64,000 nucleotides of DNA from Microbulbifer celer (GTDB lineage Bacteria; Pseudomonadota; Gammaproteobacteria; Pseudomonadales; Cellvibrionaceae): positions 4,131,501 to 4,195,500 of the forward strand of contig NZ_CP087715.1 in NCBI RefSeq assembly GCF_020991125.1, written 5' to 3'. How positions within the stretch are numbered: position 1 is the stretch's first letter; every line of letters starts with the position of its first letter. Both the position numbers and the translations under genes were made by a program. A model generated the notes under the pieces. That model was not told the origin of the DNA, searched no databases, and saw nothing but the letters and a program-made list of their open reading frames with translations. Below are positions 3,929-43,187 of the stretch, piece after piece.

Positions 3929-4040
3929 GGTGGGGCACCGGGTAAGGGTTTTCAGGATCGCTGTGTATACATCCCTGTACGCTGCGGCGGCGACGTCCCT
4001 GTCGCCGACGCTCCTGAAAACCCTTACCCGGCACCCCACC
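3929..4040. repeat. Intergenic palindromic element A (reverse orientation)
   Basis: Member of a seven-copy family. Outer arms at 3929-3957 and 4012-4040 pair at 27 of 29 positions and end inward in TTCAGGA/TCCTGA. Read on the minus strand, the interior holds two hairpins: GGCGA-CAGGGACG-TCGCC (3989-4006 on the plus strand) and TA-CAGGGATG-TA (3968-3979). The interior is nearly identical to element B, while four bases near the outer end of the arms and two in the middle differ between them with matching changes on both sides. It lies between hutC and hutU inside a leftward operon and has no T-run, so it is not an ordinary terminator. Confidence 0.85.
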
Positions 4041-4073
4041 TTCGATTCGTATTTTTGTGCTTCGTAACGCTAT

Positions 4074-4811
4074 CTAAAATCTCAGTTGTGCGCCCAGCCG
4101 GTATCGGTTCCCCGGATGCACCAACCGCGCAAAACTCACCGTGCCCGCACTGCTTTTAGTCCGCCGCCAGATCTGCAGGCAGGCAGTTCCCGTCTTTATT
4201 TCCAGTGCCGCACCAACTTCATCATCCGCACCAATCGCTTCAACGGTCGTATCCACCTCGGTCAGCGGTGCCACGCGGGTCAGGTATTCGTTCGGCGTGG
4301 TCGCGTGGAAGTCCTGGTGCAGGTATTCCGGCACCAGTGTGGGGTTGGTATAGCGTTCTTCGAACTGGATCGGCAGCTCGTTATCCAGGTGCACGATGAT
4401 CGAGTGATACACCGCGGCCCCTTCGGCGAGGCCGAGGGCGACGGAAACTTCCGTGCTGGCGGTGGTCTGCTCGAGTTTGAGTATCCGGTTGGTGTAACTG
4501 TGACCACGGGCGGCGACTTCGTCGGCTATGTTGCGTACTTCTAATAAAGAGCCCGCGGGTACCGGCTCGGCGACGAAAGTACCCAGACCCTGGGAGCGGA
4601 TGAGGACGCCTTCGTCGGTGAGCTCGGACAGTGCACGGCGGGCGGTCATGCGGCTGACGTTGAAGTCCTGAGCGAGCTGGTTTTCCGACGGTACGCGGAA
4701 GTGTGCCGGCCAGTCGCCGGACTCGATCCGGGCGCGGATATGGGCCTTGATCGCGGCGTAGCGGGGCTGGCTGCCGGTATCCGTGGTGACTGTGGAAAAC
4801 TGACTGCTCAT
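4074..4811 (-). CDS. hutC: Histidine utilisation repressor, GntR/HutC family
   Basis: Transcriptional repressor that releases DNA when urocanate binds. The 245 residues contain an N-terminal GntR winged helix-turn-helix (about residues 13-80, with RVPSENQLAQDFNVSRMTAR) and a C-terminal UTRA ligand-binding domain (about 95-240, with HSIIVHLDNELPIQFEERY). The chosen start is the ATG at 4811 (MSSQFSTVT); upstream in-frame codons would run through the operator. It heads the leftward hutC-hutU-hutH set. A perfect HutC-type palindrome 52 bases upstream implies autorepression together with control of the hut genes. Confidence 0.93.
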   Translation of the reverse strand: MSSQFSTVTTDTGSQPRYAAIKAHIRARIESGDWPAHFRVPSENQLAQDFNVSRMTARRALSELTDEGVLIRSQGLGTFVAEPVPAGSLLEVRNIADEVAARGHSYTNRILKLEQTTASTEVSVALGLAEGAAVYHSIIVHLDNELPIQFEERYTNPTLVPEYLHQDFHATTPNEYLTRVAPLTEVDTTVEAIGADDEVGAALEIKTGTACLQIWRRTKSSAGTVSFARLVHPGNRYRLGAQLRF

Positions 4812-4862
4812 ACTTGTGTGGTCTTTGCCTGCTCGGGTAAAGTGCTTACCCAGTTGTACATT

Positions 4863-4876
4863 CTTGTATATACAAG
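4863..4876. promoter_or_regulatory. HutC operator
   Basis: CTTGTATATACAAG is a perfect 14-base palindrome containing TGTA-N2-TACA, the core reported for HutC sites in Pseudomonas and Klebsiella hut promoters. It lies 52 bases upstream of the hutC start and would overlap the -10 region of a leftward promoter (minus-strand TTGCGT followed by TATACA). A weaker neighbouring half-match, TTGTACA, lies at 4854-4860. The rest of the 438-base hutC-hutI gap holds an eroded repeat and element D. Confidence 0.75.
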
Positions 4877-4950
4877 TGTGTCGATGACGCAACTATGGAT
4901 TTAGGCTTGGCCGGTGTCAATAGTGGTGGTTTGGTTTCTGGCGGTCTTCT

Positions 4951-4979
4951 ACCCGGTCTACGCCGGGATGATGACGAGA
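4951..4979. repeat. Fragment of dispersed CGTCAT-type palindrome
   Basis: CCCGG-TCTACG-CCGGG followed by ATGATGACGAG resembles one arm of the same common intergenic repeat that lies between hutU and hutH. It is only a partial copy. Confidence 0.3.
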
Positions 4980-5007
4980 GATACGGAGTGCAAAGGCTTG
5001 AGTCGCA

Positions 5008-5131
5008 GGCCGGGCACTGGGGGCGGGGTTTCAGGAGCGTCGCAAACAGGATGTTTGCGCCGCAGCGCCCAGGGATGGGTTGAAGGGGGGCGCCTAGCTC
5101 GGTCCTGAAACCCCGCCCCCAGTGCCCGGCC
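5008..5131. repeat. Intergenic palindromic element D (forward orientation)
   Basis: Outer arms at 5008-5036 and 5103-5131 are perfect reverse complements over 29 bases and end in TTTCAGGA/TCCTGAAA. Inside, hairpin 1 is CGCAAA-CAGGATG-TTTGCG (5041-5059) and hairpin 2 is CC-CAGGGATG-GG (5068-5079), separated by the conserved CCGCAGCG spacer. A tail, GGGGGGCGCCTAGCTCGG, follows. The interior almost equals that of element G, yet the outer arms are entirely different in sequence. It lies between the divergent hutC and hutI genes. Confidence 0.85.
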
Positions 5132-5249
5132 GCCACATCGCTAAGGACAGGCTTCATCACGGGATCAGAGAAGAACGCCAAGAGAGAATCCACGCCAAGT
5201 CCCCCCTAACGGGCTATCGTTACAATTAACGCCAATTCAGTGAGCGACT

Positions 5250-6491
5250 ATGACCGAACGCTGTGATCTGCTGATTACCAACGTCCACGCGGCTACCATG
5301 GATCCGTCGATGCCGGGCGCCTATGGCGCGATCGAAGACGCCGCCGTGGCGGTGACCGGCAACAAAATCGTCTGGATCGGACCGCGCCGGGAGCTGCCCG
5401 ATACCGCCGCCGACCAGATCATCGATGGTGAAGGCCAGTGGCTGACCCCGGGGCTGATCGACTGCCACACCCACCTCGTCTACGGCGGCCACCGCGCGGG
5501 TGAATTCGCCCGTCGTCTCGGCGGCGAAAGCTATGAAGAAGTCGCCCGCGCCGGCGGTGGCATCATTTCCACTGTGCGTGCTACGCGTGCGGCCAGTGCC
5601 GAAGACCTCTACAAAAAGGCCGAGCCGCGCCTCAAAGCCCTGATGCGCGAAGGCGTCACCACCGTCGAAGTGAAGTCCGGCTACGGCCTCGACCTGGACA
5701 CCGAACTCAAGCAACTGCGCGTCGCCCGTCGCCTCGCCCAGCACCTTCCGGTGAATATTCTCACCACCTGCCTTGCCGCCCACGCTCTGCCGCCGGAATA
5801 CGACGGCCGCGCCGATGAATATATCGACCTGGTGTGCAAGCAAATCCTGCCCGCCGTCGCCAGAGAACAGTTGGCCGACGCGGTGGATATGTTCTGCGAA
5901 AATATCGCCTTCTCCGTAGAACAGTGCCAGAAAGTGATCGAAGCGGCGCAAAAGCTCGACCTGCCGGTAAAAGTCCACGCGGAACAGCTCGCCCGCACCG
6001 GTGCTACCCAGATGGCCGCCCGCGCCGGCGCGCTGTCGGTGGAGCATATCGAATACATCACCGCGGAGGATGTTGCCGCCATGGCAGAGAGCGGCACCGC
6101 CGCCGTATTGTTGCCCGGCGCCTTCTACACCCTCAAGGAAACCCGCGTGCCGCCTGTGGATAAACTGCGCGCGGCCGGCGTGCCCATTGCGTTATCCACA
6201 GACTTGAATCCGGGCAGCTGCCCGCTGGCCTCCCTGCGCCTGATGATGAACATGGGGTGCAACCTGTTCGGTCTTACACCGGCAGAAGCCCTGGCGGGCG
6301 TCACCCGCGCGGCCGCGCGCGCCCTCGGCGTATGTTGTTCCCGCGGTGTCTTGCGCGCCGGGCTGCGGGCCGACATGGTGTTGTGGCCGATGGAAACACC
6401 GGATCAGCTCGCTTACGAACTGGGCGCACTCAACCCCGCACAGGTTTTCTGGGGTGGTTTTGGGAGAGGTATCGATGCTACAGCTGGCTGA
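5250..6491 (+). CDS. hutI: Imidazolonepropionase
   Basis: Hydrolyses 4-imidazolone-5-propionate to N-formimidoyl-L-glutamate, the third step of histidine degradation. The 413 residues belong to the amidohydrolase superfamily. The metal-binding DCHTHLVYGG motif is at residues 71-80 (His73, His75), and VKVHAEQLA and STDLNPGSCP supply later ligands. It starts at the ATG at 5250; the Shine-Dalgarno is weak. Its last 17 bases overlap the start of hutG, so the two are translationally coupled. It is transcribed away from hutC, with element D in the divergent region. Confidence 0.95.
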   Translation: MTERCDLLITNVHAATMDPSMPGAYGAIEDAAVAVTGNKIVWIGPRRELPDTAADQIIDGEGQWLTPGLIDCHTHLVYGGHRAGEFARRLGGESYEEVARAGGGIISTVRATRAASAEDLYKKAEPRLKALMREGVTTVEVKSGYGLDLDTELKQLRVARRLAQHLPVNILTTCLAAHALPPEYDGRADEYIDLVCKQILPAVAREQLADAVDMFCENIAFSVEQCQKVIEAAQKLDLPVKVHAEQLARTGATQMAARAGALSVEHIEYITAEDVAAMAESGTAAVLLPGAFYTLKETRVPPVDKLRAAGVPIALSTDLNPGSCPLASLRLMMNMGCNLFGLTPAEALAGVTRAAARALGVCCSRGVLRAGLRADMVLWPMETPDQLAYELGALNPAQVFWGGFGRGIDATAG

Positions 6492-7428
6492 TATGCGCCT
6501 GTGGAGCGGTCGGGTCGATCGCGAAGATGGCAAGGCCGGCAAGCGCTGGCATGAAGATATTGTGCCCCTGCACCTGGACAGTCCACCGGGGCTCGCGATT
6601 CTCGGTTTTGCCTCCGACGAGGGGGTGCGCCGCAACAAGGGGCGTATCGGTGCGGCGAAGGGGCCGCGCATCCTGCGTCTGGCGCTGGCCAACCTGCCCA
6701 AGACTTTCGCGGCGCCGCTGTATGACGCGGGCAATGTGCGGGTGGAGAAAGACGACCTGGAATCCGGGCAGGCGATGCTCGGCGCCCGCATCACCGACCT
6801 GATGACCGCCGGGCACTTTCCGCTGGTGCTCGGTGGCGGTCATGAAATCGCATATGGCAGCTATCAGGGTATTGCCCGCTGGATGCGCGAGCAGCACCGG
6901 GACAAAACCCTGGGTATTATCAATTTTGACGCGCATCTGGATATCCGCCTGCCGGCCCCGCGTGGTTCGTCGGGCACGCCATTTTTCCAGATAGCCGAAC
7001 AGTGCGACCTGAATGGGCGCCCGTTCAATTATCTCTGTGTGGGCGCCGCCGCCACCGCCAATACCCCGGCACTGTATCAGCGTGCGGAAGAACTGGGGGC
7101 GCAGGTGATTTCCGACCGGGAAATCGTGCCCTGGCGGATCGAGCGGGTACAGCGACAGATTGCCGATTTCATCGATAAGGTGGACTTTGTTTACCTGACC
7201 ATCGACCTGGATGTTTTCCCCGCGGCGATCATGCCGGCGGTGAGTGCCCCGGCGGGACGCGGGGTGGGTTTTGAGCTGTTCGAGCCGCTGCTGGATACGG
7301 TGTTGGAATCCAGGAAGGTCTGCCTGGCAGATCTCGCCGAGTTCAACCCCTACTTCGATATCGAGGACCACGCTTCGCGCACGGCGGCGCGGGTAGTGTT
7401 CCAGATTGCCAATGGCATCAGGGGTTAG
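6475..7428 (+). CDS. hutG: Formimidoylglutamase
   Basis: Arginase-family hydrolase that cleaves N-formimidoyl-L-glutamate to L-glutamate and formamide, completing the hut pathway. The 317 residues contain the manganese-binding motifs GGGHE (residues 120-124) and NFDAHLD (150-156), and TIDLDVFPA near residue 240. The start is the ATG at 6475 with GGGAGAGG just upstream, overlapping the hutI end. The direct (formamide-releasing) route is therefore used; no hutF-type deiminase is present. It converges with the Nudix gene 16 bases downstream. Confidence 0.93.
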   Translation: MLQLADMRLWSGRVDREDGKAGKRWHEDIVPLHLDSPPGLAILGFASDEGVRRNKGRIGAAKGPRILRLALANLPKTFAAPLYDAGNVRVEKDDLESGQAMLGARITDLMTAGHFPLVLGGGHEIAYGSYQGIARWMREQHRDKTLGIINFDAHLDIRLPAPRGSSGTPFFQIAEQCDLNGRPFNYLCVGAAATANTPALYQRAEELGAQVISDREIVPWRIERVQRQIADFIDKVDFVYLTIDLDVFPAAIMPAVSAPAGRGVGFELFEPLLDTVLESRKVCLADLAEFNPYFDIEDHASRTAARVVFQIANGIRG

Positions 7429-7444
7429 GTATCAGGCCAAGGTA

Positions 7445-8104
7445 TCAGGGGGCAGGGTTGTCCGCACCGGCGGATTCGCCGGTTTCTGTATCGCCCTCGG
7501 GCACCTCACTCTCCGGGAGTTCAATACCCGGCACTTCCGGAGAAATAGCGTCGGGAATGTCCCCCGCCTGTGACCGCCTGGCGTGTTCCTGCAAGTAGCG
7601 CTGGATGTACGGCTTGTGGGTATAGATGACGTTGTCTGGCAGCTTGTCCAGGTCGAAGAAGCGGTATCCGAAGATTTCGCTGTCGCGAATGGCCACCTCT
7701 TCATCCTGCAGGCGGCCGCGGATGGCTATATTGATGATCCCGGATCGCGGTACCTTGTTGACCTCCAGTACCTCGAAGTCGTCGAGATGTACACTCAGCT
7801 CCTCGTTGAGTTCGCGGCGTGCCGATTCCTCAAAAGATTCGTGCCGTTCCACCCAGCCGCCGGGCAGTGCCCACTTGTCCTGGTATGTGTGGCGCACCAT
7901 CAATAGCTGATCTCCCCGCTCCACGAAGTACACCATCCCCACCACAAACTTGTCTGTTACCGCGTAGGAGATATCCCAGCGGATGTCCGGTGGCAGGCGG
8001 CGGTAGATCTCGTACTTGAGGCCGGGAAAGACGACCAGCGCGAGCACGCCCAGGGTGCAGGCGACAAATAACAGCAGCAGGGTCTTTTTCAGCAGTGGTC
8101 GCAT
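7445..8104 (-). CDS. Membrane-anchored Nudix hydrolase
   Basis: A 219-residue protein with one N-terminal membrane helix (about residues 8-27), then a Nudix domain (about 50-175) and an acidic, proline-rich C-terminal tail. The Nudix box fits G-x5-E-x7-REUxEE exactly: Gly83, Glu89, Arg97-Glu98, Glu101-Glu102. The substrate cannot be told from sequence; the anchor and the tail are not part of the minimal family. Start at the ATG at 8104. It converges with hutG but is probably unrelated to histidine use. Confidence 0.8.
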   Translation of the reverse strand: MRPLLKKTLLLLFVACTLGVLALVVFPGLKYEIYRRLPPDIRWDISYAVTDKFVVGMVYFVERGDQLLMVRHTYQDKWALPGGWVERHESFEESARRELNEELSVHLDDFEVLEVNKVPRSGIINIAIRGRLQDEEVAIRDSEIFGYRFFDLDKLPDNVIYTHKPYIQRYLQEHARRSQAGDIPDAISPEVPGIELPESEVPEGDTETGESAGADNPAP

Positions 8105-8354
8105 TGTCCGGATACCGCGTTCGGCAAATACTGGGACGGAAGAGGCTGGTCCAGAAGAATCTGACTCAGACGGGCTATCAGAGTGTCTCTGTCATGTGAA
8201 GGTTCACCGGCTGGTGCCTGAAACCGCCGGGCGGCTGAAATCGATGGTAAGGCTGTTCCCATATCCGCCTCTTATGGTCTGATCCCTTTCCGCCGTTGGG
8301 AGACGGGCTTACGACATTACAATGCCCGCTCATGATACCGGTAAAGGTGTGGCT

Positions 8355-8714
8355 ATGTTCAAGTTTAGAATGTTATCCCTGTTGAGTATTGCTGCTCTGG
8401 CAACCCCCGCTTTTGGTGACACCCTGGTTACGGATAATTACACCATCGAAATTGAGCGCAACTGTGAGGAGGGGGAGGTTGTGTGTGACAACGTCAGTTA
8501 TCGCTCCCAGTCACACAAGTCGGGCAATCGCCTGGAGCTCAATGGCAGGACCCTGTCGCGGATGTGTGATGATGGCGTGACGCCCTGTCAATTTCTGGGT
8601 TATCAATTCAAGAACGGCAATACCACATACACTGTGCTGGAGTCTGGTCTGCTCAAAGTCACGGAAAATGGCAAAGTGCTGGTGCAGGAACAGGGGCGCT
8701 GGCTGGGGCAATGA
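8355..8714 (+). CDS. Small secreted cysteine-containing protein, unknown function
   Basis: A 119-residue protein with an N-terminal signal peptide (MFKFRMLSLLSIAALATPAFG, cleavage expected before DTLV). The mature part has four cysteines in two pairs (NCEEGEVVC and CDDGVTPC), suggesting periplasmic disulfides, and a predicted all-beta pattern. The start is the ATG at 8355 with AAAGGTG upstream; an earlier in-frame ATG at 8322 would spoil the signal peptide. I do not recognise the family. The 250 bases before it, back to the Nudix start, show nothing clear. Confidence 0.65.
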   Translation: MFKFRMLSLLSIAALATPAFGDTLVTDNYTIEIERNCEEGEVVCDNVSYRSQSHKSGNRLELNGRTLSRMCDDGVTPCQFLGYQFKNGNTTYTVLESGLLKVTENGKVLVQEQGRWLGQ

Positions 8715-8855
8715 TCTGTACTCACCGCTTTTGTCGTCCACTGCGGAATCAATCCGGAGTGCATGCGTCTAACTTCGCAGGCTCGCCGGCAACTTGGCGC
8801 TAACTTCGGCATTCACCATATTGACGATCACCACAGGACGGGAAGAGGGACTTTC

Positions 8856-10058
8856 ATGGGGCAGTTTCGAAAATGGCGCGGACCGCTGGCCGCGGCCTGT
8901 GGCTGGTTGATAAGTGGGAGCCTGCACGCGGATACGCCCGCGCAGGATCTGGATGATCTCCTGGCACTGGTGACAGATGCTGTGCGCCCCATCGTTGTTG
9001 AGCACCGGGTGCCGGGGATGGCCATCGGATTGATTGTCGATGGTGAACATTATTTCTTCAACTTCGGCGTGGCTTCCGAAGATGCCCGCACACCGGTTAC
9101 CGAGCACACGCTGTTCGAAATTGGCTCGGTCAGTAAAACCTTCACCGCGACCCTGGCGGCCTATGCCCAGGAGAAAGGCGTGTTGGCGATGGAGCAGCCG
9201 GTCACTGAATATCTGACCGCGCTTCAGGGGAGCGCACTGGATGATGTCTCCGTGTTGAATCTCGCCACCCACACCGCGGGGCACTTTCCACTCCAGGTGC
9301 CCGAGAAGGTGAACAGCGAGAAGCAATTGTTCGACTATTTTCGCCAGTGGCAGCCGCAGTACCGGCCCGGCAGCAAGCGGACTTACGCCAACCCCGGGAG
9401 TGGCCTGCTGGGGGTGGTGAGCGCAGATAGTCTGGGGCAGTCGTTTAGTGAGGTGATGGAGCAAACCCTGTTCCGCGGCCTCGGGTTGTCGGAGACTTAC
9501 CTTCGGGTACCAACGGAGCGGATGTCGGATTATGCCGAGGGGCACAACAGCAAGCACCAGGCCGTTCGCCTCAACAATGGGCTGCTGGGAAATGAGGCCT
9601 ACGGCGTCAAATCCACCAGTGCGGACCTGATTCGCTATCTCGCCACACAGATGCAGCTGGTAAAAACCCCGGAAACTTTCGAGCGCGCTCTGCAGGCCAC
9701 CCGTCGCGGCTATTTCAAAACCGATTATTATGTCCAGGATATGGTGTGGGAGCAGTACGCGTTACCGGTAGAGAAAAAACGCCTGCTGGCGGGCAATTCC
9801 CGTTCAATGATTATTGGCGATCACCCGGTAACGGCAATCGACCCGCCGCTTGATCCGCAGCAGGATGTGCTGATCAACAAGACCGGCTCCACCGGTGGCT
9901 TTTCCACCTACGTAGCATTTATCCCGGGAGAGCAGTTTGGTTTTGTGTTACTGGCGAACAAGTACTTCCCGAATGAGCCGCGCATTGAAGCGCTTTATCA
10001 TATGCTGGAAACCCTGCTGCCGCGGACGGCTCGGGAAACCGCGGTTACCGCAGACTGA
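8856..10058 (+). CDS. ampC: Class C beta-lactamase (AmpC type)
   Basis: Serine hydrolase expected to open beta-lactam rings in the periplasm. All three class C signatures are present: SVSK (residues 91-94, nucleophile Ser91), YAN (177-179) and KTG (342-344). Long stretches follow AmpC closely, such as TLFEIGSVSKTFT, FPLQVPEKV, EAYGVKST and GGFSTYVAFIPG. A signal peptide ends near HADTPAQ. At 400 residues it is slightly longer than the enterobacterial enzyme (about 380). The start at 8856 is set by AGAGGGA five bases upstream. Where AmpC has YTAGGLPLQ this protein has HTAGHFPLQ. The last 14 bases overlap the convergent LysR gene, and there is no divergent ampR. Confidence 0.88.
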   Translation: MGQFRKWRGPLAAACGWLISGSLHADTPAQDLDDLLALVTDAVRPIVVEHRVPGMAIGLIVDGEHYFFNFGVASEDARTPVTEHTLFEIGSVSKTFTATLAAYAQEKGVLAMEQPVTEYLTALQGSALDDVSVLNLATHTAGHFPLQVPEKVNSEKQLFDYFRQWQPQYRPGSKRTYANPGSGLLGVVSADSLGQSFSEVMEQTLFRGLGLSETYLRVPTERMSDYAEGHNSKHQAVRLNNGLLGNEAYGVKSTSADLIRYLATQMQLVKTPETFERALQATRRGYFKTDYYVQDMVWEQYALPVEKKRLLAGNSRSMIIGDHPVTAIDPPLDPQQDVLINKTGSTGGFSTYVAFIPGEQFGFVLLANKYFPNEPRIEALYHMLETLLPRTARETAVTAD

Positions 10059-10965
10059 GCTGAGCGAGAAATAACTGAATCGCGGGTTGTTGCTCCGAGC
10101 TTTTTTTGTAGGTCACTGCATTCTGTATCTGGTAGCAGAACCGTTCCGGTCGCAGTGCGACCAGTCCTCCTTCTCTCACATACGGCTCTGCCAGATAACT
10201 TGGCAGAAAGCCGATAAATTTCCCCGACAGGATCATCGCCAGTCGCGCTGCCATATGGTTGGCGGTGGAGCGATTGGGGAACAGTCGATACAGGTGTGCC
10301 GCACCGGACAGCACCGCATGGCTGGGAGCGGCCAATTCCTGTTGGGTCAGCAATTCCTCTTCAATTTCCCACTGGTCTGCACAGGGATGCATTGCGCCAC
10401 AGTACAGCAGAGATTGATGGCTGAATAGCGGCCGGTAATTGAGACCCGGGCGGCGGGAGTGCAGGGGGTTGATACCCACATCGGCGCGGCCGGCGAGGAT
10501 TTCCAGTTCCAGTTCATGGGGCGCGGCGAGCTGCACGTCCAGCTGCAATTGCGGGGCGCGCTCGCGCAGATTGGCAATGGTGGCGGGGAGATCGAGCTGC
10601 GGCATCTGTAGGGCGTCGTCGGGGAGGACGACACGCAGCTGGCCGGTAAGCTGTGACTGGATTGCATTGACCTGGCTTTTGAAGCTGGCCAGATGGCCGT
10701 CGAGTTCCTGGATCGCCTGATACAGGGCCTCCCCCTCGGGGGTCAGCTTGAAATCGGCGCGGCCCCGGGAGCGCAGGCAAAGCTGCATGCCGAGGCGGGT
10801 TTCCAGATCGCTGAGATGCACGCTGATGGTGGAGCGGCTGATATTCAGCGCCACTTCTGCCGGCGCCAAGCCACCGGCGCGAACCACCTCACGGAATACC
10901 CGCAACAGGCGCAGGTCCATATCGCTGACGCGGCCGGAAAGGGCAGGTTTGACGGATTGGTTCAT
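10045..10965 (-). CDS. LysR-family transcriptional regulator
   Basis: A 306-residue regulator with an N-terminal LysR helix-turn-helix (about residues 15-75, LNISRSTISVHLSDLETRLG) and a C-terminal substrate-binding domain. It is divergent from the aldehyde dehydrogenase gene, with a 157-base shared promoter region holding a 7-base inverted repeat, so it most likely controls that dehydrogenase and the aminotransferase after it. It overlaps ampC tail to tail. An internal Met (residue 16, MDLRLLRVF) is an alternative start; neither has a strong Shine-Dalgarno. Confidence 0.85.
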   Translation of the reverse strand: MNQSVKPALSGRVSDMDLRLLRVFREVVRAGGLAPAEVALNISRSTISVHLSDLETRLGMQLCLRSRGRADFKLTPEGEALYQAIQELDGHLASFKSQVNAIQSQLTGQLRVVLPDDALQMPQLDLPATIANLRERAPQLQLDVQLAAPHELELEILAGRADVGINPLHSRRPGLNYRPLFSHQSLLYCGAMHPCADQWEIEEELLTQQELAAPSHAVLSGAAHLYRLFPNRSTANHMAARLAMILSGKFIGFLPSYLAEPYVREGGLVALRPERFCYQIQNAVTYKKSSEQQPAIQLFLAQLSLR

Positions 10966-11012
10966 GGCGGCAGATTTTTCACTGGATGGGATGCTGGACA
11001 GAGGCTATCACC

Positions 11013-11035
11013 AAAGTTTGGCTTTCATAAACTTT
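11013..11035. promoter_or_regulatory. Candidate LysR operator
   Basis: AAAGTTT (11013-11019) and AAACTTT (11029-11035) form a perfect inverted repeat around a 9-base spacer. This is the shape of a LysR-type site, and it sits about midway between the divergent LysR gene and the dehydrogenase. Confidence 0.5.
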
Positions 11036-11122
11036 AGTTGGAAAGAATCTACTATCCAGTGTCGGACTGACCATCCAAAATCTCTACAGCTACCGAATTG
11101 ACAGCACTTGTGGGGGTATTCG

Positions 11123-12568: not shown

Positions 12569-12630
12569 CCCCGCGACCGTGGAGCTCCAGCTCCGCCAAC
12601 TGACCCGCAGTTTTGAATTTCGTTTGTGGC

Positions 12631-12742
12631 GGCAGAGCACCGGGTGCGGGTTTTCAGGACCGCTGTGAATACATCCATGTACGCTGCGGCGGCGACGTCC
12701 CTGTCGCCGACGCTCCTGAAAACCCGCACCCGGTGCTCTGCC
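12631..12742. repeat. Intergenic palindromic element B (reverse orientation)
   Basis: Outer arms at 12631-12659 and 12714-12742 are perfect reverse complements over 29 bases, ending TTTTCAGGA/TCCTGAAAA. Inner hairpins on the minus strand are GGCGA-CAGGGACG-TCGCC (12691-12708 on the plus strand) and TA-CATGGATG-TA (12670-12681). The interior matches element A almost base for base, whereas the outer arms differ at six positions per side, always in a matched way. It lies between two co-directional genes of one presumed operon. Confidence 0.87.
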
Positions 12743-12810
12743 TTCGCATTTCACTTTTGGCTTCGTCAGCAATTTTGTAAATATTCATTTAATGGAACTC
12801 GGAGTGAGCT

Positions 12811-15317: not shown

Positions 15318-15430
15318 CTCAACTACACTGAACTAAATGCGGGTTTATCTGCGGTGTGATTGTGCCTGTTACAACGGGGCGATGATGTCGTGAACCCACA
15401 GGGTGTTGTAGTACTGGGGCAGATACGGGC

Positions 15431-19314: not shown

Positions 19315-19428
19315 GGCGCCGGAATCGGGTACAACCTTGCGAGACCTTCAAAAACAGGGATGTTTTTGCAGAGCCCCCAAGGATGGGTTCACGGCGTGTC
19401 TCGCAAGGTTGTACCCGATTTCGGCACC
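19315..19428. repeat. Intergenic palindromic element E (forward orientation)
   Basis: Outer arms at 19315-19344 and 19399-19428 pair at 28 of 30 positions and end inward in GCGAGA/TCTCGC. Hairpin 1 is CAAAAA-CAGGGATG-TTTTTG (19349-19368); hairpin 2 is CC-CAAGGATG-GG (19376-19387), extended to GAGCCC/GGGTTC. The interior and tail (TTCACGGCGTG) match element F, while the outer arms differ. It lies between two convergent genes. Confidence 0.85.
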
Positions 19429-19453
19429 GCCACTAAGGTAAATTAGTATCCTT

Positions 19454-22426: not shown

Positions 22427-22581
22427 GGCAGAGCACCGAGTGCGGGTTTTCAGGACCGGGCTAGGCGCCCCCCCTGTGAATACATGCATGTCAGCTGCGT
22501 CGTAAAGTATCCGGCCGCTTCAACGCGGCGCCTTCGGCCCTGTTTGCGACGCAGCTGAAAACCCGCACCCGGTACTCTGCC
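22427..22581. repeat. Intergenic palindromic element C (variant, reverse orientation)
   Basis: Outer arms at 22427-22454 and 22554-22581 pair at about 26 of 28 positions and share the inner end TTTTCAG/CTGAAAA with elements A and B. The interior is longer (about 100 bases) and different. It begins with CTAGGCGCCCCCC (as in reversed element D), carries ACATGCATGT, and adds a second nested stem, CAGCTGCGTCG/CGACGCAGCTG. It looks like a hybrid or an insertion-bearing copy. Confidence 0.75.
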
Positions 22582-32187: not shown

Positions 32188-32205
32188 GTACTTGTTGCCA
32201 AGTGA

Positions 32206-32340: not shown

Positions 32341-32401
32341 CAATCTGGCTCTGAATAAGGGCTGGTAACCCAAAACAATAACCGGATTCGTGGAGATGTC
32401 T

Positions 32402-34921: not shown

Positions 34922-34968
34922 TTTACCCGAAAGCGAGTAGAGCGTGCATCAATGGTAGATGCGAAGGG

Positions 34969-35076
34969 TTTGATGGGCGGGGCCTACTCGCGAGACCTTC
35001 TAAAACAGGGACGTTTTAGAAGAGCCCCCATGGATGGGTTCACGGCGTGTCTCGCGAGTAGGCCCCGCCCAGCAAA
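34969..35076. repeat. Intergenic palindromic element F (forward orientation)
   Basis: Outer arms at 34969-34995 and 35050-35076 pair at 26 of 27 positions and end inward in GCGAGA/TCTCGC. Hairpin 1 is TTCTAAAAC-AGGGA-C-GTTTTAGAA (34998-35021); hairpin 2 is CC-CATGGATG-GG (35027-35038). The interior equals element E except in the hairpin 1 stem, where both sides changed together. It sits between the GH105 fusion gene and kduI on the same strand. Confidence 0.87.
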
Positions 35077-35136
35077 GCCGCCAAGAAACTGCCTGCAACG
35101 CTCCTTATGCTACGACGTACAAACAGGGGAATAGCA

Positions 35137-35979: not shown

Positions 35980-35990
35980 TATTTCTGAGC

Positions 35991-36070
35991 GGTGGGTGCG
36001 CTGTGCTTATCCACCCTGCTGAAATGGTTTCCCATATCCCCGTAGGGTAGATAAGCGCAGCAGATCTACC
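35991..36070. repeat. Dispersed GTGGATAAGCGCAGC-type inverted repeat
   Basis: GGTGGGTGCGCTGTGCTTATCCACCCT (arm at 35991-36017) faces an imperfect reverse complement ending GATCTACC (36044-36070) around a 26-base loop. This resembles the widespread proteobacterial intergenic sequence containing GTGGATAAGCGCAGCGCATCCACC. It separates kduI from kduD. Confidence 0.6.
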
Positions 36071-36089
36071 GAAAAACTGGAGTAAATTT

Positions 36090-36881
36090 ATGTCCAAATC
36101 ACTGTTTGACCTAACCGGAAAACTCGCCCTGGTAACCGGCGCAACCCATGGCCTGGGTATGGCGATGGCAGAGGGGCTGGGTAACGCCGGTGCCAAGCTG
36201 GTCATTACCGGTCACTCCTCTCAGGAGAAGCTGGATAACGCTGTTTCCGCACTGCGCGAAAAAGGCTGCGACGCTCACGGCTACCTGTTCGACGTCACCG
36301 AAGAATCGGTGGTAAATGAAATGGTCGCGGTGATCGAGCAGGAGCAGGGACCGATCGACGTACTGGTGAACAACGCCGGTATCATCCGCCGCGTACCGCT
36401 ACTGGAGATGGAACTGTCCGAGTGGAACAAGGTACTGCAGACCAACCTCACCGGAGTAATGGTGATGAGCCGCCCGGTGGTGAGACGCATGATCGAGCGT
36501 GGTGCCGGTAAAGTCATTAATATCTGCTCCATGATGAGTGAGCTGGGGCGCGACTCCGTATCTGCCTACGCTGCCGCCAAGGGCGGCCTGAAAATGCTGA
36601 CCCAGAATATGGCTACCGAGTGGGCCCGTCATGGTATCCAGGTTAACGGCATCGGACCTGGCTACTTCGCTACCAGCCAGACCGCGCCGATCCGTGTTGA
36701 CGGCCACCCGTTCAATGATTTCATTATCAACCGTACGCCCGCGGGGCGCTGGGGTAATCCGGAAGATCTGCAGGGCGCTGCGGTGTTCCTGTCCAGTGAA
36801 GGGAGTAACTTCGTGAACGGTCAGGTCATTTACGTGGATGGCGGTATTCTCGCCACTATTGGTAAGCCGGCTAACGAGTGA
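36090..36881 (+). CDS. kduD: 2-dehydro-3-deoxy-D-gluconate 5-dehydrogenase
   Basis: Short-chain dehydrogenase reducing 2,5-diketo-3-deoxygluconate to KDG. The 263 residues contain the cofactor motif TGATHGLG (residues 15-22), NNAG (about 94-97) and the catalytic Ser and YAAAK tetrad segment (SMMSELGRDSVSAYAAAKGG). Start at the ATG at 36090. It directly follows kduI, as in other pectin regulons. Confidence 0.93.
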   Translation: MSKSLFDLTGKLALVTGATHGLGMAMAEGLGNAGAKLVITGHSSQEKLDNAVSALREKGCDAHGYLFDVTEESVVNEMVAVIEQEQGPIDVLVNNAGIIRRVPLLEMELSEWNKVLQTNLTGVMVMSRPVVRRMIERGAGKVINICSMMSELGRDSVSAYAAAKGGLKMLTQNMATEWARHGIQVNGIGPGYFATSQTAPIRVDGHPFNDFIINRTPAGRWGNPEDLQGAAVFLSSEGSNFVNGQVIYVDGGILATIGKPANE

Positions 36882-37047
36882 TATTCCTGCGCAGCGGGTG
36901 TTTAAACCGCTGAGTACTTCTGGGTAATTCCCACAAAAAAAGTTGCTTCCCTCTCAGGGTGTGAGTGAGAGGGTCGGGAGCCCCCGTTTGGTGTAACAAG
37001 CGGGCTCTCGCGAAATAACATTTAATAAACTTCCTCCGGGAGCAACA

Positions 37048-38460
37048 ATGTACGCGATGATATTCTCCGTTTGGGGCAGCCTGCTCCGGACTATGCACCC
37101 CTGCGCGCTTTTTTCCGTGTGTGCGTGTATTGCGAGTACGACATTTTCTGTTTCCGCTCTCAGTCTCGAATACCATACGGATGAGTGGGCTCTTGCAGAT
37201 CAAATTGTCGATGGTATTCAACTGCCGAATATTCCCGATCGTGAATTTCTTATTACCGATTACCATCAACAATCCGGTGGCGATGTACGCCCAGCAATTA
37301 TGGCGGCAATCGATGCGGCTGTGGGAGCGGGTGGTGGTCGGGTAGTTATTCCCAAAGGGGAATGGCTGAGTAAAGGGCCGGTAGCACTACAAAGCCGCAT
37401 AAACCTGCATCTTGAAAAAGGTGCAACACTGAAATTCTCCCCTGAGCCGGAACACTATCTGCCGGTAGTCAAAACACGCTGGGAAGGTACTGAGCTTTAT
37501 ACCTATTCTCCGCTGGTCTATGCAGCCAATGTGAAAGATGTGGCAATTACCGGTGAAGGCGTGATCGATGGCAACGCAGAAAGCCGATTTAAAAGCTGGC
37601 ATCCCAAGCAGTCTGCCGATATGCAGAGGCTGCGTAAAATGGGGGCTAAAGGGATACCGGTGGAAAAGCGCGTGTTTGCAGAGGGAACCTATCTGCGTCC
37701 CCCCCTGGTTCAGTTCTTCCACGCCGAACGCGTCTTGCTGGAAGACTTTACTACACTCAATTCCCCATTCTGGATCAACCACCTTGTCTACACGGATCAC
37801 GCAACCGTGCGCGGTATTCGTGTGGAAAGCCATTTTCCGAATAACGACGGTGTGGATATCGAATCCAGTAGTAACGTGCTGGTGGAACACAGCTGGTTTC
37901 GTACCGGCGATGACTCTGTAGTGGTGAAGTCTGGCCGTGATCTGGATGGTCGCACCATCGGGGTTCCCAGTGAGCGTATTGTGGTTCGCAACAACGATAT
38001 GGGTGGTGAGGACGGTATCGCCCTCGGCAGTGAAATGTCAGGTGGTATCCGCGATGTCTTCTTTACCGACAATGTGCTGCGCAACGGTGATTCTGCTTTT
38101 CGATTCAAGGCAAACCTCGACCGTGGTGGCCTGGTGGAGAATGTGCGGTTGCGAAATCTCAAGGTTGAATCCTTCGATAACCTGTTCTGGTTTCAGCTGA
38201 ATTACCCGGGAGAGCTGGGTGGATTCTTCCCATCCACATATCAGGACATTGTTTTTGAAAATATTGAGGTGCAGGAGGTGGGCACGTTTCTGGAAGTGCA
38301 TGCGCCGGAGGCGGCACCGCTGAAAGATGTTTTATTCAAGGGTATTCAGGTGGGTAAGGTAGAGACACCGATGATCATCGAGAATGCCGTGAACCTGGAG
38401 TTCAAAGAGGTGCAACTTGGAAGTCAGCGAATTGATGGTGTATTGAGCTGGCGAAAATAG
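37048..38460 (+). CDS. GH28-family protein with altered active site
   Basis: A 470-residue secreted beta-helix protein related to the first GH28 enzyme (shared YLPVVKTRWEG, YSPLVYA, LRPPLVQF, LGSEMSGG). It has a signal-like N-terminus, not a Tat motif. The acid pair and aspartates remain: NNDGVD (Asp267) and GDDS (Asp288, Asp289). The family GHG histidine is replaced: the aligned segment reads GGEDG, with Glu321 where the paralogue has His333, and RIK is RFK. It may therefore act on a modified substrate or have low activity. Two stem-loops lie upstream (36950-36974 and 36979-37008). Confidence 0.8.
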   Translation: MYAMIFSVWGSLLRTMHPCALFSVCACIASTTFSVSALSLEYHTDEWALADQIVDGIQLPNIPDREFLITDYHQQSGGDVRPAIMAAIDAAVGAGGGRVVIPKGEWLSKGPVALQSRINLHLEKGATLKFSPEPEHYLPVVKTRWEGTELYTYSPLVYAANVKDVAITGEGVIDGNAESRFKSWHPKQSADMQRLRKMGAKGIPVEKRVFAEGTYLRPPLVQFFHAERVLLEDFTTLNSPFWINHLVYTDHATVRGIRVESHFPNNDGVDIESSSNVLVEHSWFRTGDDSVVVKSGRDLDGRTIGVPSERIVVRNNDMGGEDGIALGSEMSGGIRDVFFTDNVLRNGDSAFRFKANLDRGGLVENVRLRNLKVESFDNLFWFQLNYPGELGGFFPSTYQDIVFENIEVQEVGTFLEVHAPEAAPLKDVLFKGIQVGKVETPMIIENAVNLEFKEVQLGSQRIDGVLSWRK

Positions 38461-38492
38461 GGTATTAACCACCATAACGAGGAGAGAGAAAA

Positions 38493-41291
38493 ATGGCGAA
38501 CTATAAAATCAAGCCATTAGTTCTGGCGATGGCCTTCACCGCTCCGGTGATGGCACAGGAGCCGATAACCGAAACAGAAGCCCAGACCACTGGCGATGCC
38601 ACGCTGGAAGAGCTTACGGTAACCGGTTTCCGTCAGTCCCTGGAGCGCGCATTGGACACCAAGCGTGACAGTGCCAACAATACCGATAGCATCATTGCCG
38701 AAGACATGGGGAAAATGCCGGATCTGAACCTGGCGGAATCCCTGCAGCGGGTACCGGGTGTGGCAATTTCCCGCGAAGGTGGTGAAGGTCGCAAAATTAC
38801 CGTGCGCGGCCTCGGCCCGGGCTTTTCCCGCACCACCCTGAACGGTATGGAAGTGCCTTCCAGTACCGGTGGTCTCGATTCATCCGGCGGTGTCAACCGC
38901 GGTCGCGATTTTGACTTCAACGTGTTTGCATCTGAGCTGTTCAATCAGATTACCATCCACAAGTCTCCCATCGCTTCTGTGGAAGAAGGTGGTCTTGCTT
39001 CTACTGTAGAGCTTTCTACCGCGCGTCCGTTTGACAACCCCGGCCAGCAGGTCGCCTTCAGTGGTCAGATGATGGCGGACAGCTTTGCCGGAGAAGATAA
39101 CCCGCGCCTGACCGGCCTGTACAGCAATACCTTTATGGATGACAGGCTGGGTGTACTGGTAAGTGCGGCCTATTCCGAGCGCACTGTGCGCCAGGAAGGT
39201 TTCGGTTCTGTACGTTGGACCAGCCCGGTAGCCAATGGCCAGAGTTGGGCCAACGGTGATTCCGATGTAACCATTAACGGAACACCAAATCCCGGCGCAA
39301 ATAATCCCGGTGAAGATGTAGCTGCAGACAGTTCGCTGGATTACATGTGGACCCCGCGTCTGCCGCGTATGGATTCCTTCAACCGCGATCAGGAACGCCT
39401 CGGTCTCACTTCCTCCGTTCAGTTCCGTCCGACGGACTCGATGGAATTCTCACTGGATGTGCTGACTTCCAACCTGAAGGCCGACGTCACCTCGTACAAC
39501 TACTTCGCACAGTTCCGCAACACCTACGATCAGATCTCTCCGTCGAGCGTAACCCTCGATCCCACGGGACGTTACATTGTGGCCGGTGAATTCGACAACG
39601 TCACGCCGCGTTCCGAAAGCCGCGGACAGTTCAGTGAAACCGACTTCACCCAGGTAGTACTTTCCGGTCAGTTCGATATCGCCGACAATATGGTGCTGGA
39701 CCTGATGTACGGTAATGCCACCTCTGAGCACACCGAAGACCAGTTGCGTTTTAATCAGACCGCAGCGGAAGGGCATGGCTTCTCTTACTCTTTCGAGAAA
39801 GACAAGAATATTGCCGAAATGGATTACGGCTTTGATATTCTCGACGCTTCCAACTATGTGTGGAGTGGTCCTACCCTGCGTCGCGACATCGTCGAGCGTG
39901 AAAACGATACTCTCCGTGCAGACTTCACCATCGAAGGTGACAGCTCCAGTATTAAAACCGGTCTGATTTGGAACAGCCGTGCGGTCGCTTCTGAGCGCTG
40001 GGATGCCATCAACATTAACGAAGATCTCAACGGCGCTGTAGTCGATGCCAACCTCGCCACTTCGCTGGGCAGCGTTGTAGGCGATTACGCCGATGGTATT
40101 GATGCCCCGTCCGGCTACCCCAACACCTGGCTGGTAGCCGATTACGACGCTGCTGCTGCAGCTTGGGGAGTCGGAGACTGGGCGCTGAATGAAGATGATT
40201 CCAGTACCTACGATATCGAAGAGGAAACCCTCGGCGGTTACGTAGAAGCGAACGTCTACACCCAGCTGCTTGGCTTGCCGTTTACCGTCAACAGTGGCCT
40301 GCGTATTGTTGATACCAAGGTGACTTCCCGCGGAGTCTCCAGTGATGGCGAAGGCGGCTTTGCTCCCGTCGAGCGCGAAGGCAGCTATACCGAAATCCTG
40401 CCCTCCGCGAACTTCGTACTGGAACTGGAACAGGACCTGCTGCTGCGTCTCGGCATTGCGCGCAATATGTCCCGTCCAGGGCTCGGCAGCCTCGCCGGCA
40501 CCGTCAGCGTTACTCCGATCAACGGCAACGTCAGTATCGGCAATCCGAATCTGGAACCGGTACGGGCCAACTCTGCAGATCTTGGTCTGGAATGGTACTT
40601 TGCGGAAGAATCTGTACTGGCGCTGACCCTGTTCCACAAACAGATTGAAAGCTTTACCACCGGAGAAACCCTGGAAAACCAGACTCTGCCTGCTGACATT
40701 CGCGCGATTGTGGCGGCGCGTCCGGAATATGACCCAAGCAGCCCGCTGTACGAACCGAATGCCATTCACCCAGACGACGATGGCTGGAATATCTCCACCT
40801 CTGTCAATGGTGAAGGCGCGGACCTGAACGGCTACGAGCTGTCCTACCAGCAGCCGCTGCGCTTCCTGCCGGGCTGGGCGAGTAATTTCGGTGTGCTGGC
40901 CAACTATACCCATGTACAGTCCCGGGCTGATTTCGGCAACGGTGTGCGGGGTTCCCTGGAAGGCCTGTCTGAGAATAGCTATAACGCGGGTGTTTACTAC
41001 GAGACGGACCTGTTTGGTGGTCGTCTGATGCTGAACAGCCGTGACGATTACGTGACGGATCAGACCGGCTCCAACGGCAACGCTTCTCACGGCACCACTG
41101 GGCCGACCCGCCTGGATATGTCTGCGTTCTACAACGTGACCGACTACGCGACCATCACGCTGGAAGCGATCAACCTCACCAATGAGGCTGAGCGCTTGTA
41201 TACCACTGGTCCGCTGGGTGACATGGATCTGGTGCGCGAATACAACAGCACCGGTCGCGAAGTGTTGGTAGGCCTGCGGGTTAACTTCTGA
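38493..41291 (+). CDS. TonB-dependent outer-membrane receptor
   Basis: A 932-residue receptor with a signal peptide (cleavage after VMA, about residue 20), a plug domain (LEELTVTGF, LAESLQRVPGVAISREGGEG, ITVRGLGPG) and a barrel ending in Phe (GLRVNF). Only 32 bases separate it from the GH28-like gene before it, and GAGGAGAG precedes its start, so the two are co-expressed. It is a distant paralogue of the receptor at 29.4 kb, presumably for a different oligomer size or substitution. Confidence 0.92.
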   Translation: MANYKIKPLVLAMAFTAPVMAQEPITETEAQTTGDATLEELTVTGFRQSLERALDTKRDSANNTDSIIAEDMGKMPDLNLAESLQRVPGVAISREGGEGRKITVRGLGPGFSRTTLNGMEVPSSTGGLDSSGGVNRGRDFDFNVFASELFNQITIHKSPIASVEEGGLASTVELSTARPFDNPGQQVAFSGQMMADSFAGEDNPRLTGLYSNTFMDDRLGVLVSAAYSERTVRQEGFGSVRWTSPVANGQSWANGDSDVTINGTPNPGANNPGEDVAADSSLDYMWTPRLPRMDSFNRDQERLGLTSSVQFRPTDSMEFSLDVLTSNLKADVTSYNYFAQFRNTYDQISPSSVTLDPTGRYIVAGEFDNVTPRSESRGQFSETDFTQVVLSGQFDIADNMVLDLMYGNATSEHTEDQLRFNQTAAEGHGFSYSFEKDKNIAEMDYGFDILDASNYVWSGPTLRRDIVERENDTLRADFTIEGDSSSIKTGLIWNSRAVASERWDAININEDLNGAVVDANLATSLGSVVGDYADGIDAPSGYPNTWLVADYDAAAAAWGVGDWALNEDDSSTYDIEEETLGGYVEANVYTQLLGLPFTVNSGLRIVDTKVTSRGVSSDGEGGFAPVEREGSYTEILPSANFVLELEQDLLLRLGIARNMSRPGLGSLAGTVSVTPINGNVSIGNPNLEPVRANSADLGLEWYFAEESVLALTLFHKQIESFTTGETLENQTLPADIRAIVAARPEYDPSSPLYEPNAIHPDDDGWNISTSVNGEGADLNGYELSYQQPLRFLPGWASNFGVLANYTHVQSRADFGNGVRGSLEGLSENSYNAGVYYETDLFGGRLMLNSRDDYVTDQTGSNGNASHGTTGPTRLDMSAFYNVTDYATITLEAINLTNEAERLYTTGPLGDMDLVREYNSTGREVLVGLRVNF

Positions 41292-41301
41292 TCCATAGCA
41301 G

Positions 41302-41400
41302 GTATCGAGTACCCGGGTCTTATAAGAATGGGCCCGGGTAGGCGATACAATTGGTTTTCATATCATCTTCTTTAGCCGGGCAATTGCCCGGCTTTTTTAC
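41302..41400 (+). terminator. Stem-loop plus rho-independent terminator
   Basis: GTATCG-ag-TACCCGGG (41302-41317) pairs with CCCGGGTA-gg-CGATAC (41333-41348). It is followed by GCCGGGCAATTGCCCGGC and six T (41375-41398), which ends the receptor operon. Confidence 0.85.
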
Positions 41401-41427
41401 GCTTTACTTTCACCGCACCGCAAACAA

Positions 41428-41458
41428 AAAAAATCCCGCGGCTTGCCGCGGGATTTTC
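41428..41458 (-). terminator. Rho-independent terminator for the leftward uxaC-uxuB set
   Basis: On the minus strand AATCCCGCGG-CAAG-CCGCGGGATT is followed by a run of T. It lies about 55 bases past the end of the UxuB-like gene. Confidence 0.85.
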
Positions 41459-41513
41459 CTAAGGAACGGAAATAAGCGAGAAGATAACTATCAATTAACA
41501 AACAAAAACAGAT

Positions 41514-43004
41514 TCAGATCTCGGCAAAGTACTTGCGTGCACAGGCCAGGGTGCCCTCGGTTTCCAGCTTCTGCAGCCAGTCACTCAGTTTTTCCTGCAG
41601 GCGTGCACTCTCGCGCAGATCATCACCAAATACCGGTGTGAAGGCGAGGAACGCCGCTGCCAACTTGCGGGCGCCCTGAGACTTGTATTGATCACAGAGG
41701 GCTTTGAGCTCCGCGGCCAACGGGTCGGAAACCTCGATCTCGTTGCCCTGCTCATCCACGGCGGAAACATAGCGGATCCAGTTTGCCAGTGCGAAGCTCA
41801 CCACGTCGATGGGCCCATCGTTTGCCAGCTGCTGGCGCAGGGTACCCAACCAGCGCTGGGGGATCTTCTGCGATCCATCCATGGCAATCTGCCAGGTGCG
41901 GTGGCGCAGGGCTCGGTTTTCGAAGCGTTCGATAAGCTGCGCCTGATAGGCCGCGATATCAAAGTCCGCCGGTACATCAATGGACGTGGTGGCCTCAGTC
42001 TGCATAAAGTGCAGCGCCAGCTTGTTGAACGCCGGCTCCGCCATCACGTCGGCCACCGTTTCACAGCCGGCTAGATAGCCGCTGTAAGCCAGCATGGAAT
42101 GGGAGCCATTCAACAGGCGCAGCTTGATCAGCTCGTACACTTCTACATCGTCTACAAACATCGCCCCGGCCTTGTCCCACTCGGGGCGTCCGCGCAGGAA
42201 ATTGTCTTCCACCACCCACTGGGAAAACGGCTCCGCCATCACCGCCGCCTCGTCGCGACAGCCGAGAATACTTTCCAGCTCGTTGCGGTCCTCATCGGTG
42301 GTCGCCGGCACAATCCGGTCAACCATGGTCGCGGGGGTGGTGGTATTGTCTGCGATCCAGGTTGCCAGCTCGCTGTCGACTTTCTCCGCGTATTGGGAAA
42401 GTACCCGGCCCAGCAGGTGGCCGTTGGATGGCAGGTTGTCGCAGGACAGTACAGTAAAGCCCGGCAGTCCGCGTTCCTTACGCAGCTGCAGTGCGCCGAC
42501 AATAAAGCCCAGCGCAGACTTTGGCTGTTGCGGATTTTCCAGATCGTGGACCACATCAGGATGTTGCGGATTCAGATTGCCGCTCGCGGGATCGTGGCAG
42601 TAACCCTTCTCGGTAATGGTCAGGGAAACAATACGCACACTCTCCTGGGCCAGCAGCTCCAGTAACTGTTGCGGACTCTCCGGCGCCACATACACATCAC
42701 TGACCGCACCCACGATCTGCACCTTGGTGCCCGCATTGGATTTCTCTACCACCGAGTAGAGACCATTCTGTGGCACCAGCTGATCGCGCACACCGGCGGA
42801 ACGCAGGCTCGCGCCCACAATACCCCAGTCTTTTTCACCGGCGGTGATACGGTTTTCCGTGTACCAGGCCTGGTGTGCACGGTGGAAGGCACCGATACCC
42901 AGGTGCACGATGCCGGTAGTGACTTCACTGCGGTCATAGGCCGGCTTGATTACCTCCGGGGGGAGGTTTTCGAGAATACTGTTGTTGAGTCTTTCTTGGC
43001 TCAT
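41514..43004 (-). CDS. uxuB: UxuB-like hexuronate reductase (mannitol dehydrogenase family)
   Basis: NADH-dependent oxidoreductase of the polyol family. The 496 residues follow UxuB (fructuronate reductase, EC 1.1.1.57) closely: GIVHLGIGAFHRAHQ, SLTITEKGYCHD, VLSCDNLPSNGHL, VEDNFLRGRPEWDKAGAMF, LRLLNGSHSMLAYSGYL. The catalytic Lys lies in the KLRLLNGSHS block. In its context, with UxaC before it and UxaA elsewhere, the needed reaction for galacturonate is tagaturonate to altronate. No mannonate dehydratase is seen here. Substrate is therefore open: fructuronate by sequence, tagaturonate by context. Confidence 0.82.
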   Translation of the reverse strand: MSQERLNNSILENLPPEVIKPAYDRSEVTTGIVHLGIGAFHRAHQAWYTENRITAGEKDWGIVGASLRSAGVRDQLVPQNGLYSVVEKSNAGTKVQIVGAVSDVYVAPESPQQLLELLAQESVRIVSLTITEKGYCHDPASGNLNPQHPDVVHDLENPQQPKSALGFIVGALQLRKERGLPGFTVLSCDNLPSNGHLLGRVLSQYAEKVDSELATWIADNTTTPATMVDRIVPATTDEDRNELESILGCRDEAAVMAEPFSQWVVEDNFLRGRPEWDKAGAMFVDDVEVYELIKLRLLNGSHSMLAYSGYLAGCETVADVMAEPAFNKLALHFMQTEATTSIDVPADFDIAAYQAQLIERFENRALRHRTWQIAMDGSQKIPQRWLGTLRQQLANDGPIDVVSFALANWIRYVSAVDEQGNEIEVSDPLAAELKALCDQYKSQGARKLAAAFLAFTPVFGDDLRESARLQEKLSDWLQKLETEGTLACARKYFAEI

Positions 43005-43062
43005 ATTGTTCTACTCGGTTGAGTAAATTTTTGGCTTGCGAAGTACAGAACTTTGATACGAA

Positions 43063-43187
43063 GCCGGAGAGCCGGGTATCTGTTTTCAGAAGCGTCGCAA
43101 ACAGGATGTTTGCGCCGCAGCGCCCAGGGATGGGTTCCCAGGGGGGCGCCCAGCTCGGTTCAGAAAACAGATACCTGGTGCTCCGGC
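43063..43187. repeat. Intergenic palindromic element G (forward orientation)
   Basis: Outer arms at 43063-43090 and 43160-43187 pair at about 24 of 28 positions. Hairpin 1 is CGCAAA-CAGGATG-TTTGCG (43096-43114); hairpin 2 is CC-CAGGGATG-GG (43123-43134). The interior, including the GGGGGGCGCC(C)AGCTCGG tail, almost equals element D 38 kb away, but the outer arms do not. It lies between uxaC and the UxuB-like gene in one leftward operon. Confidence 0.83.

Follow-up and report, generated by a model that had tools for sequence, protein, structure and literature searches.

Seven intergenic elements of Microbulbifer celer with covarying stems: a probable branch of a YPAL-type family of miniature mobile DNA

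A 64,000-nt stretch of the Microbulbifer celer genome (contig NZ_CP087715.1, positions 4,131,501 to 4,195,500 of the forward strand; hereafter the window) carries seven copies of an intergenic element, named A to G, in which a long stem is closed by a three-way junction of hairpin 1 (H1) and hairpin 2 (H2). These elements probably form the Microbulbifer branch of a family of miniature non-coding mobile DNA of the YPAL type, non-autonomous and moved in trans, with pairing of the stem maintained in source copies. This reading draws on a core and plan shared with YPAL, on covariation in the stem, on an intergenic and mostly downstream-of-gene position, and on the presence, in some lineages and copies, of terminal inverted repeats and target duplications, including two types of end around one interior in a single distant genome (G306). 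None of the findings calls for a new class of RNA.

Each of the seven elements lies where a first reading of the DNA (the sequence-only reading) had placed it, with an outer stem and two inner hairpins, and once the loops are used to orient them the seven can be aligned over their full length. The strand carrying the CAGGGATG loops is minus for A (3929..4040), C (12631..12742) and E (22427..22581), and plus for B (5008..5131), D (19315..19428), F (34966..35079) and G (43063..43187). The limits of F given here are 3 nt wider on each side than those first assigned to it, its site being unchanged. The outer stems, earlier put at 27-30 bases, measured 29-31 nt; the two hairpins were as described, with a nested insert in E. 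Mismatches between the outer arms, wobbles counted, number 0-4 of 29-30, and the predicted fold energies range from -73 to -102 kcal/mol in two runs. The arms of the seven elements account for seven of the eight strongest inverted repeats in the window (arms at most 200 nt apart), the eighth being a stem inside E. H1 has a variable stem and a CA-n-GGA-T/C-G loop, whereas H2 is nearly fixed as GAGCC..CAKGGATG..TTYACGGCG or close variants, and conserved letters extend beyond the arms, with CGAA 5' of the 5' arm (CGCA in B) and GCCAC or near it 3' of the 3' arm.

Two sub-types can be distinguished, type II (D and F) and type I (A, B, C, E and G). Three of the type I elements carry a GGCGCCTAG module: in B it lies before the 3' arm (5085-5101), in G at 43141-43157, and E has, besides the module, a GC-rich hairpin nested within the loop of H1 (approximately 22510-22540). 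A covariance model (R1) built from these seven copies only gave its own source elements 135.6 (A), 128.2 (B), 145.3 (C), 114.5 (D), 100.1 (E), 111.6 (F) and 120.2 bits (G). Some pairwise comparisons in the sequence-only reading had to be revised: A and B differ at nine positions in the 5' arm and seven in the 3' arm, not at six in each; B and G, rather than D and G, share an interior but not their arms; and D and F, rather than E and F, differ on both sides of hairpin 1.

A GC-rich hairpin of about 31 bp is common to the H1 loop of E (22510-22540) and the H2 loop of another M. celer copy (L095, approximately 331-488), as if the element loops were preferred insertion points for nested hairpins; nested hairpins in H1 are also seen in some copies from genomes G306 and G422. 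Weakly conserved motifs flank the M. celer elements in the same direction as the elements themselves, one CTACGAAGTA-like and about 25 nt upstream, the other ACAGAGCACC-like and about 16 nt downstream.

The sequence-only reading recognised no named family, but core and plan match those of YPAL (also RU-2), a miniature mobile repeat already in the literature and reportedly first described by De Gregorio in 2006. Both have an outer stem, an H1 with a CAAGGATG loop and an H2 of the form GAGCC-TACATGGATGTA-TTTACGGCGTC, and both are high-copy and intergenic. Target duplications of variable length at or beside dyads, as in YPAL, are visible in three of the M. celer copies. The YPAL/RU-2 letters are published (PMC2759123, consulted as excerpts), and in an alignment (A3) they carry the same core hairpins, in the same order, as the Microbulbifer elements, which thus have a match among repeat families already described. 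R1 was built without YPAL, so its matches to plasmid loci are independent of YPAL being in the model: all three loci examined, taken from the top of a list of 17 plasmid records, were matched, at 68.6 bits in Enterobacter, 34.1 bits in Pantoea and 28.2 bits in Escherichia coli. On the Enterobacter plasmid (L287) there is a second, inverted copy of 55.6 bits, approximately 97 bp apart. The YPAL core itself matches 17 of 72,556 plasmid records; among 5,426 E. coli genomes it matches 5.

According to the available part of PMC2229807, YPAL contains internal inverted repeats, inserts at or beside dyads with duplications of 3-26 bp, and has both filled and empty sites; the available part of PMC2847712 gives counts for Yersinia and three copies in E. 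coli. The Microbulbifer elements differ from YPAL/RU-2 (approximately 167 bp) in their arm and terminal sequences and in their longer, nearly perfect stems with a hypervariable block. Visible duplications are lacking in 126 of 129 M. celer copies; the other three have duplications of 11-13 bp, as against the 3-26 bp of YPAL.

Other known families resemble the elements less. Rfam at gathering thresholds gave no match in the window, Ysr224 (RF02770, Yersinia small RNA 224) included; at three of ten loci from relatives Ysr224 aligned with H2 and H1, on the strand that does not bear the loops, but its best score there was 28.7 bits against a cut-off of 70. A permissive Rfam scan of F returned only microRNA hairpins (best E value 0.0013, 31.9 bits, cut-off 72), which we take as chance, and TwoAYGGAY RNA was not among the matches up to E 10 in F, the one element scanned at that threshold. 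From the bacterial miniature inverted-repeat transposable elements (MITEs) ERIC, NEMIS and RUP, whose sequences are presumably unlike those of our elements, the Microbulbifer elements differ in that their outer arms vary from copy to copy. Such MITEs are, in the available part of PMC3733652, non-coding, shorter than 300 bp, hairpin-forming and often beside genes, all of which the Microbulbifer elements are too. A literature search on intergenic inverted repeats in Microbulbifer found no paper.

The repeats are spread throughout the M. celer genome. R1 matched 148 of 150 scored candidates (1,048 passed a first look). In the window and 40 further stretches of 20 kb, with the better strand kept at each place, R1 found 45 full copies and 2 short ones; seven of the full copies are in the window and 38 in the 800 kb outside it, or 31 in 780 kb without stretch L097 (7 copies), which was placed off the even grid. 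These counts suggest a total of approximately 170-205 copies in 4.35 Mb. A further 20 stretches, picked as element-rich, gave 84 copies at E 1e-12 or better. The spread is uneven: 22 of the 148 matches listed lie between 3.91 and 4.13 Mb, and 15 between 0.87 and 2.17 Mb. Copies are often found as inverted pairs, approximately 40-85 bp apart and turned towards each other by their 5' ends (L097, L094, L081 and many other places in M. celer).

Gene context was taken from simple gene calls, without annotation. Three of the 129 copies fall at stretch ends; the other 126 comprise 94 in tandem gaps, 28 in convergent gaps and 4 in divergent gaps, although divergent gaps make up 37,087 of the 173,975 intergenic bp. 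In three copies the overlap with a called gene exceeds 20 nt, and the median distance from a copy to the 3' end of the adjacent gene is 56 nt. As YPAL does, the elements thus insert close to dyads and to the 3' ends of genes: copies are scarce in divergent gaps, and three copies bounded by outer repeats lie, judged by eye, at terminator-like hairpins. Strand bias is slight, at 27:25 and 53:43 in the two halves of the chromosome, the split being assumed at mid-coordinate. The same context raises the thought that the elements are useful to the host as RNA of 3' untranslated regions, co-transcribed with the upstream gene and folding so as to set mRNA stability, with pairing kept for that purpose; the available part of PMC2229807 does allow that YPAL might influence the stability of the upstream transcript. 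Against this, copies in tandem gaps show no clear orientation bias, with 52 lying with the genes and 42 against them.

The covariation of the stem is real and unusually free. The sequence-only reading had seen it among the window copies; it holds both in a cross-genus alignment with shuffled and slid controls and in the 129 M. celer copies. The alignment holds 24 sequences: one Yersinia YPAL, four copies from the window and 19 elements taken from nine further genomes. Both of its type I rows and several others are off by one column, which counts against the structure. Even so, 84% of cells pair and two-sided changes occur in 25 of 30 pairs. The covariation score is 0.562, compared with 0.176 (standard deviation 0.016) for shuffled alignments, none of 500 shuffles reaching it; sliding the structure gives 0.09-0.21, against 0.56 for the true one. 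Within M. celer a 7-nt block in mid-stem is mostly unlike between copies, with 47 distinct forms among 62 type I copies and 57 among 67 of type II, a split made by a rough string test that misfiles a few copies, window element G included. The two arms of the block nevertheless have fewer than two of seven positions mismatched in 118 of the 129 copies. Unmatched blocks concentrate in copies with a GGCGCCTAG-like module (8 of 30, versus 3 of 99 without it), and one of the three module-less cases appears due to a small deletion; copies with unmatched arm blocks look like recombinants or chimeras.

Mismatches in the M. celer stems are biased on the top strand of the element, where G.T outnumbers A.C by 94 to 17. 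Sorted by the direction of the copy relative to both flanking genes, the ratio is 37:5 for copies lying with the genes and 26:4 for those lying against them, with 26:6 in convergent and 3:0 in divergent gaps. If folding of mRNA were the driver the bias should flip with gene orientation; it is the same in either, and so tracks the strand of the element rather than the transcript.

Comparison of three of the sites between species bears on the same point, although the relatives are only approximately 70-87% identical in DNA at the loci compared, so that the edges of empty sites are inexact. At the C site a counterpart lies in the same place and orientation in all four Microbulbifer loci compared (L110-L113); its mid-stem block is altered on both arms between the window and L110, and in the L112 copy the arms are unmatched. 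At the D site, among six loci, L112 has a full copy, L110 a deletion remnant, and L109, L111, L113 and L114 no element. At the E site, again among six, there is a counterpart in L111, arm remnants in L110 and L113, and none in L112, L114 and L115. The D and E sites are thus filled in some relatives and empty in others, as is described for YPAL. That some sites are common to several species would suit a useful element of the 3' untranslated region, as would the short distance to the adjacent 3' end and the near absence from divergent gaps; the loss or absence of copies in some species at two of the three compared sites, together with the indifference of orientation and of wobble bias to transcription, makes that explanation unlikely.

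The sequence-only reading left two options for the covariation, that structure is selected or that the copying mechanism regenerates the arms. Under the second, each arm would be rewritten from the other by template switching or snap-back synthesis in hairpins, and covariation would arise without selection on structure. Mispaired intermediates are indeed few in the block in which all four Watson-Crick pairs are common, and as stem positions beyond 14 hold only 16 G.T and 9 A.C, two-sided changes seem not to pass via lasting wobbles; the alteration of both arms at the orthologous C site points the same way. However, fixed non-Watson-Crick positions persist in both types (in type I, position 8 is T.G and position 9 G.T, each in 39 of 62 copies; in type II, position 8 is A.G in 41 of 67), and the unmatched blocks of the chimeric copies stand uncorrected, with and without the module. 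The fixed mismatches and chimeras indicate that the arms are not simply copied from each other, and we give arm rewriting little credence. Selection on structure fits better, with neither option proven, and we infer that its target is the DNA of source copies, as a folded strand or in extruded form, and that neutral decay follows insertion.

Besides the differences between species at the D and E sites, signs of mobility come from the ends of the elements. In G306, of which nine loci were read, six have elements of 213-277 bp whose ends are of CAGCAATTCCCA type; the duplications measure 9-10 bp and are exact in four cases, with one mismatch in two. The other three have elements of 176-320 bp with TACTCCCTTT ends, TA outermost on both sides and no longer duplication visible. 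The interior is similar between the two. A tenth match in these loci, the second at L209, keeps the right end alone. In M. celer the copies at L082:9752, L084:6514 and L250:801 lie within units of 177-178 bp bounded by TAATGCTG-type repeats, at terminator-like hairpins, with duplications of 11, 13 and approximately 12 bp, the last with a mismatch. At L253:8709-8952 a TAATGCTG-type repeat (TAATGCTGTTCACTTAA) is followed by a truncated frame with a sub-threshold match to Nterm_IS4 (12 bits, cut-off 25, E 0.27); this frame is perhaps what is left of a partner to the three copies bounded by repeats. In the mechanism that we propose, DNA transposases supplied in trans would move the units. Pairing would be kept in the lineage of source copies, where the folded single strand (the element's top strand) or extruded DNA would be needed for mobility or tolerance, and would not be owed to any need of the flanking mRNA; inserted copies would then decay by internal deletion.

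A different means of spread would be that of REP/BIME-like palindromes, carried by a RAYT (Y1) transposase, a link that the sequence-only reading proposed to look for. The elements do share with REP, BIME and REPIN sequences a dispersed, extragenic and palindromic character, with high copy number and frequent inverted pairs, and Y1 genes occur in 37 of 40 genomes of the genus. The single Y1 match in M. celer, however, is weak (26.5 bits, cut-off 23; its neighbourhood was not read), and the congener G012, with 51 element matches, has none. Strong Y1 genes are found both in element-rich congeners (G016, G006) and in element-poor ones (G003, G009, G010, G014). REPs are 20-40 bp long in the available part of PMC3733652, whereas the elements are approximately 112-155 nt and have a three-way junction. 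The check for a linked transposase thus gave the proposal no support, and spread by RAYT seems to us very improbable. The test for an intrinsic terminator was negative as well: no run of T directly follows the hairpin, 3' of the 3' arm, in any of the seven elements, which upholds the earlier statement that they have no T-run and are not simple terminators. No support was found for either a terminator or a RAYT-driven repeat.

Within the reading of the elements as YPAL-type mobile DNA, a more specific version deserves mention, though we hold it only tentatively and think it rather less than even. The three-way-junction core might itself be the unit of selection, a structure-defined selfish module that is processed as a folded single strand (the top strand), has spread through the gammaproteobacteria and has been enclosed time and again by terminal repeats from unrelated transposons, its stem being free to turn over provided that it stays paired. 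Two end types around one interior in G306, and a third type in Microbulbifer, are what this version predicts.

Matching elements occur well beyond M. celer. An initial set of 29 genomes, relatives together with M. celer itself, gave matches in 21, and congeners range from 0 to more than 100 element matches, the number of candidates scored being limited to 111. A 19-letter pattern from hairpin 2 was found in 13 of 369 gammaproteobacterial genomes, again counting M. celer, and the reversed pattern in none among the matches listed; one of the 13 (G361) has a lone match with a fold unlike the others. Elements read from other pattern-bearing genomes have the same plan with unrelated arms, and some have longer nested H1 hairpins. 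A broader covariance model (R2), with 12 candidates scored per genome, scores window elements A, C, D and F well. At a threshold of E 1e-5 it matches 72 of the 369 genomes, spread over 64 of 272 genera, and 62 of those 72 still match at 1e-10. In a phylum-wide draw of 299 genomes, 19 match R2, all from the same class or nearer, the share of other classes in that sample being unstated. The core of element F had no match at E 0.01 among phages and plasmids. Six R2 matches approximately 227 bp apart at G600:C1:94428-95645 are apparently a tandem array of the element.

Several observations weigh against the reading of the elements as a YPAL-type mobile family. The kinship with YPAL appears from approximately 50 nt of core and the plan, with termini that differ. 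An outer repeat with a duplication bounds only 3 of the 129 M. celer copies, and 126 show none. Direct-repeat matches of at least 9 flank 10 of the 129 (null mean 4.6, maximum 9), and without the three repeat-bounded copies the 7 that are left are near chance; a within-copy test of flank repeats gives 6.31 versus 5.94 (standard deviation 0.09), a small excess led by, and not confined to, those three. No autonomous partner was found, and a search for PF13006 found it in none of 18 genomes. The G.T excess is partly shared descent, since dropping states present in at least 5% of copies leaves 36:21 (p 0.06). Across taxa the count in 53 elements is 38:26 (p 0.17), or 12:5 (p 0.14) outside the genus, and the 16:9 at stem positions beyond 14, the region of the variable block, is weaker than RNA-level selection would suggest. 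Finally, the R2 counts stand without a shuffled control, and R2 is weak on the module-bearing window copies B, E and G (20.3, 11.7 and 26.5 bits).

The YPAL-type family appears wider than its described range, for which the available parts of the published accounts name Yersinia, Erwinia and, with a few copies, E. coli. Should this core indeed recur in 62-72 of the 369 genomes, it would constitute a wide family of small mobile DNA in gammaproteobacteria. The many natural compensatory changes in each genome would offer a means to ask what a folded strand does in mobile DNA, and the covariance model is ready for annotating repeats that are perhaps unlabelled or taken for small RNAs.

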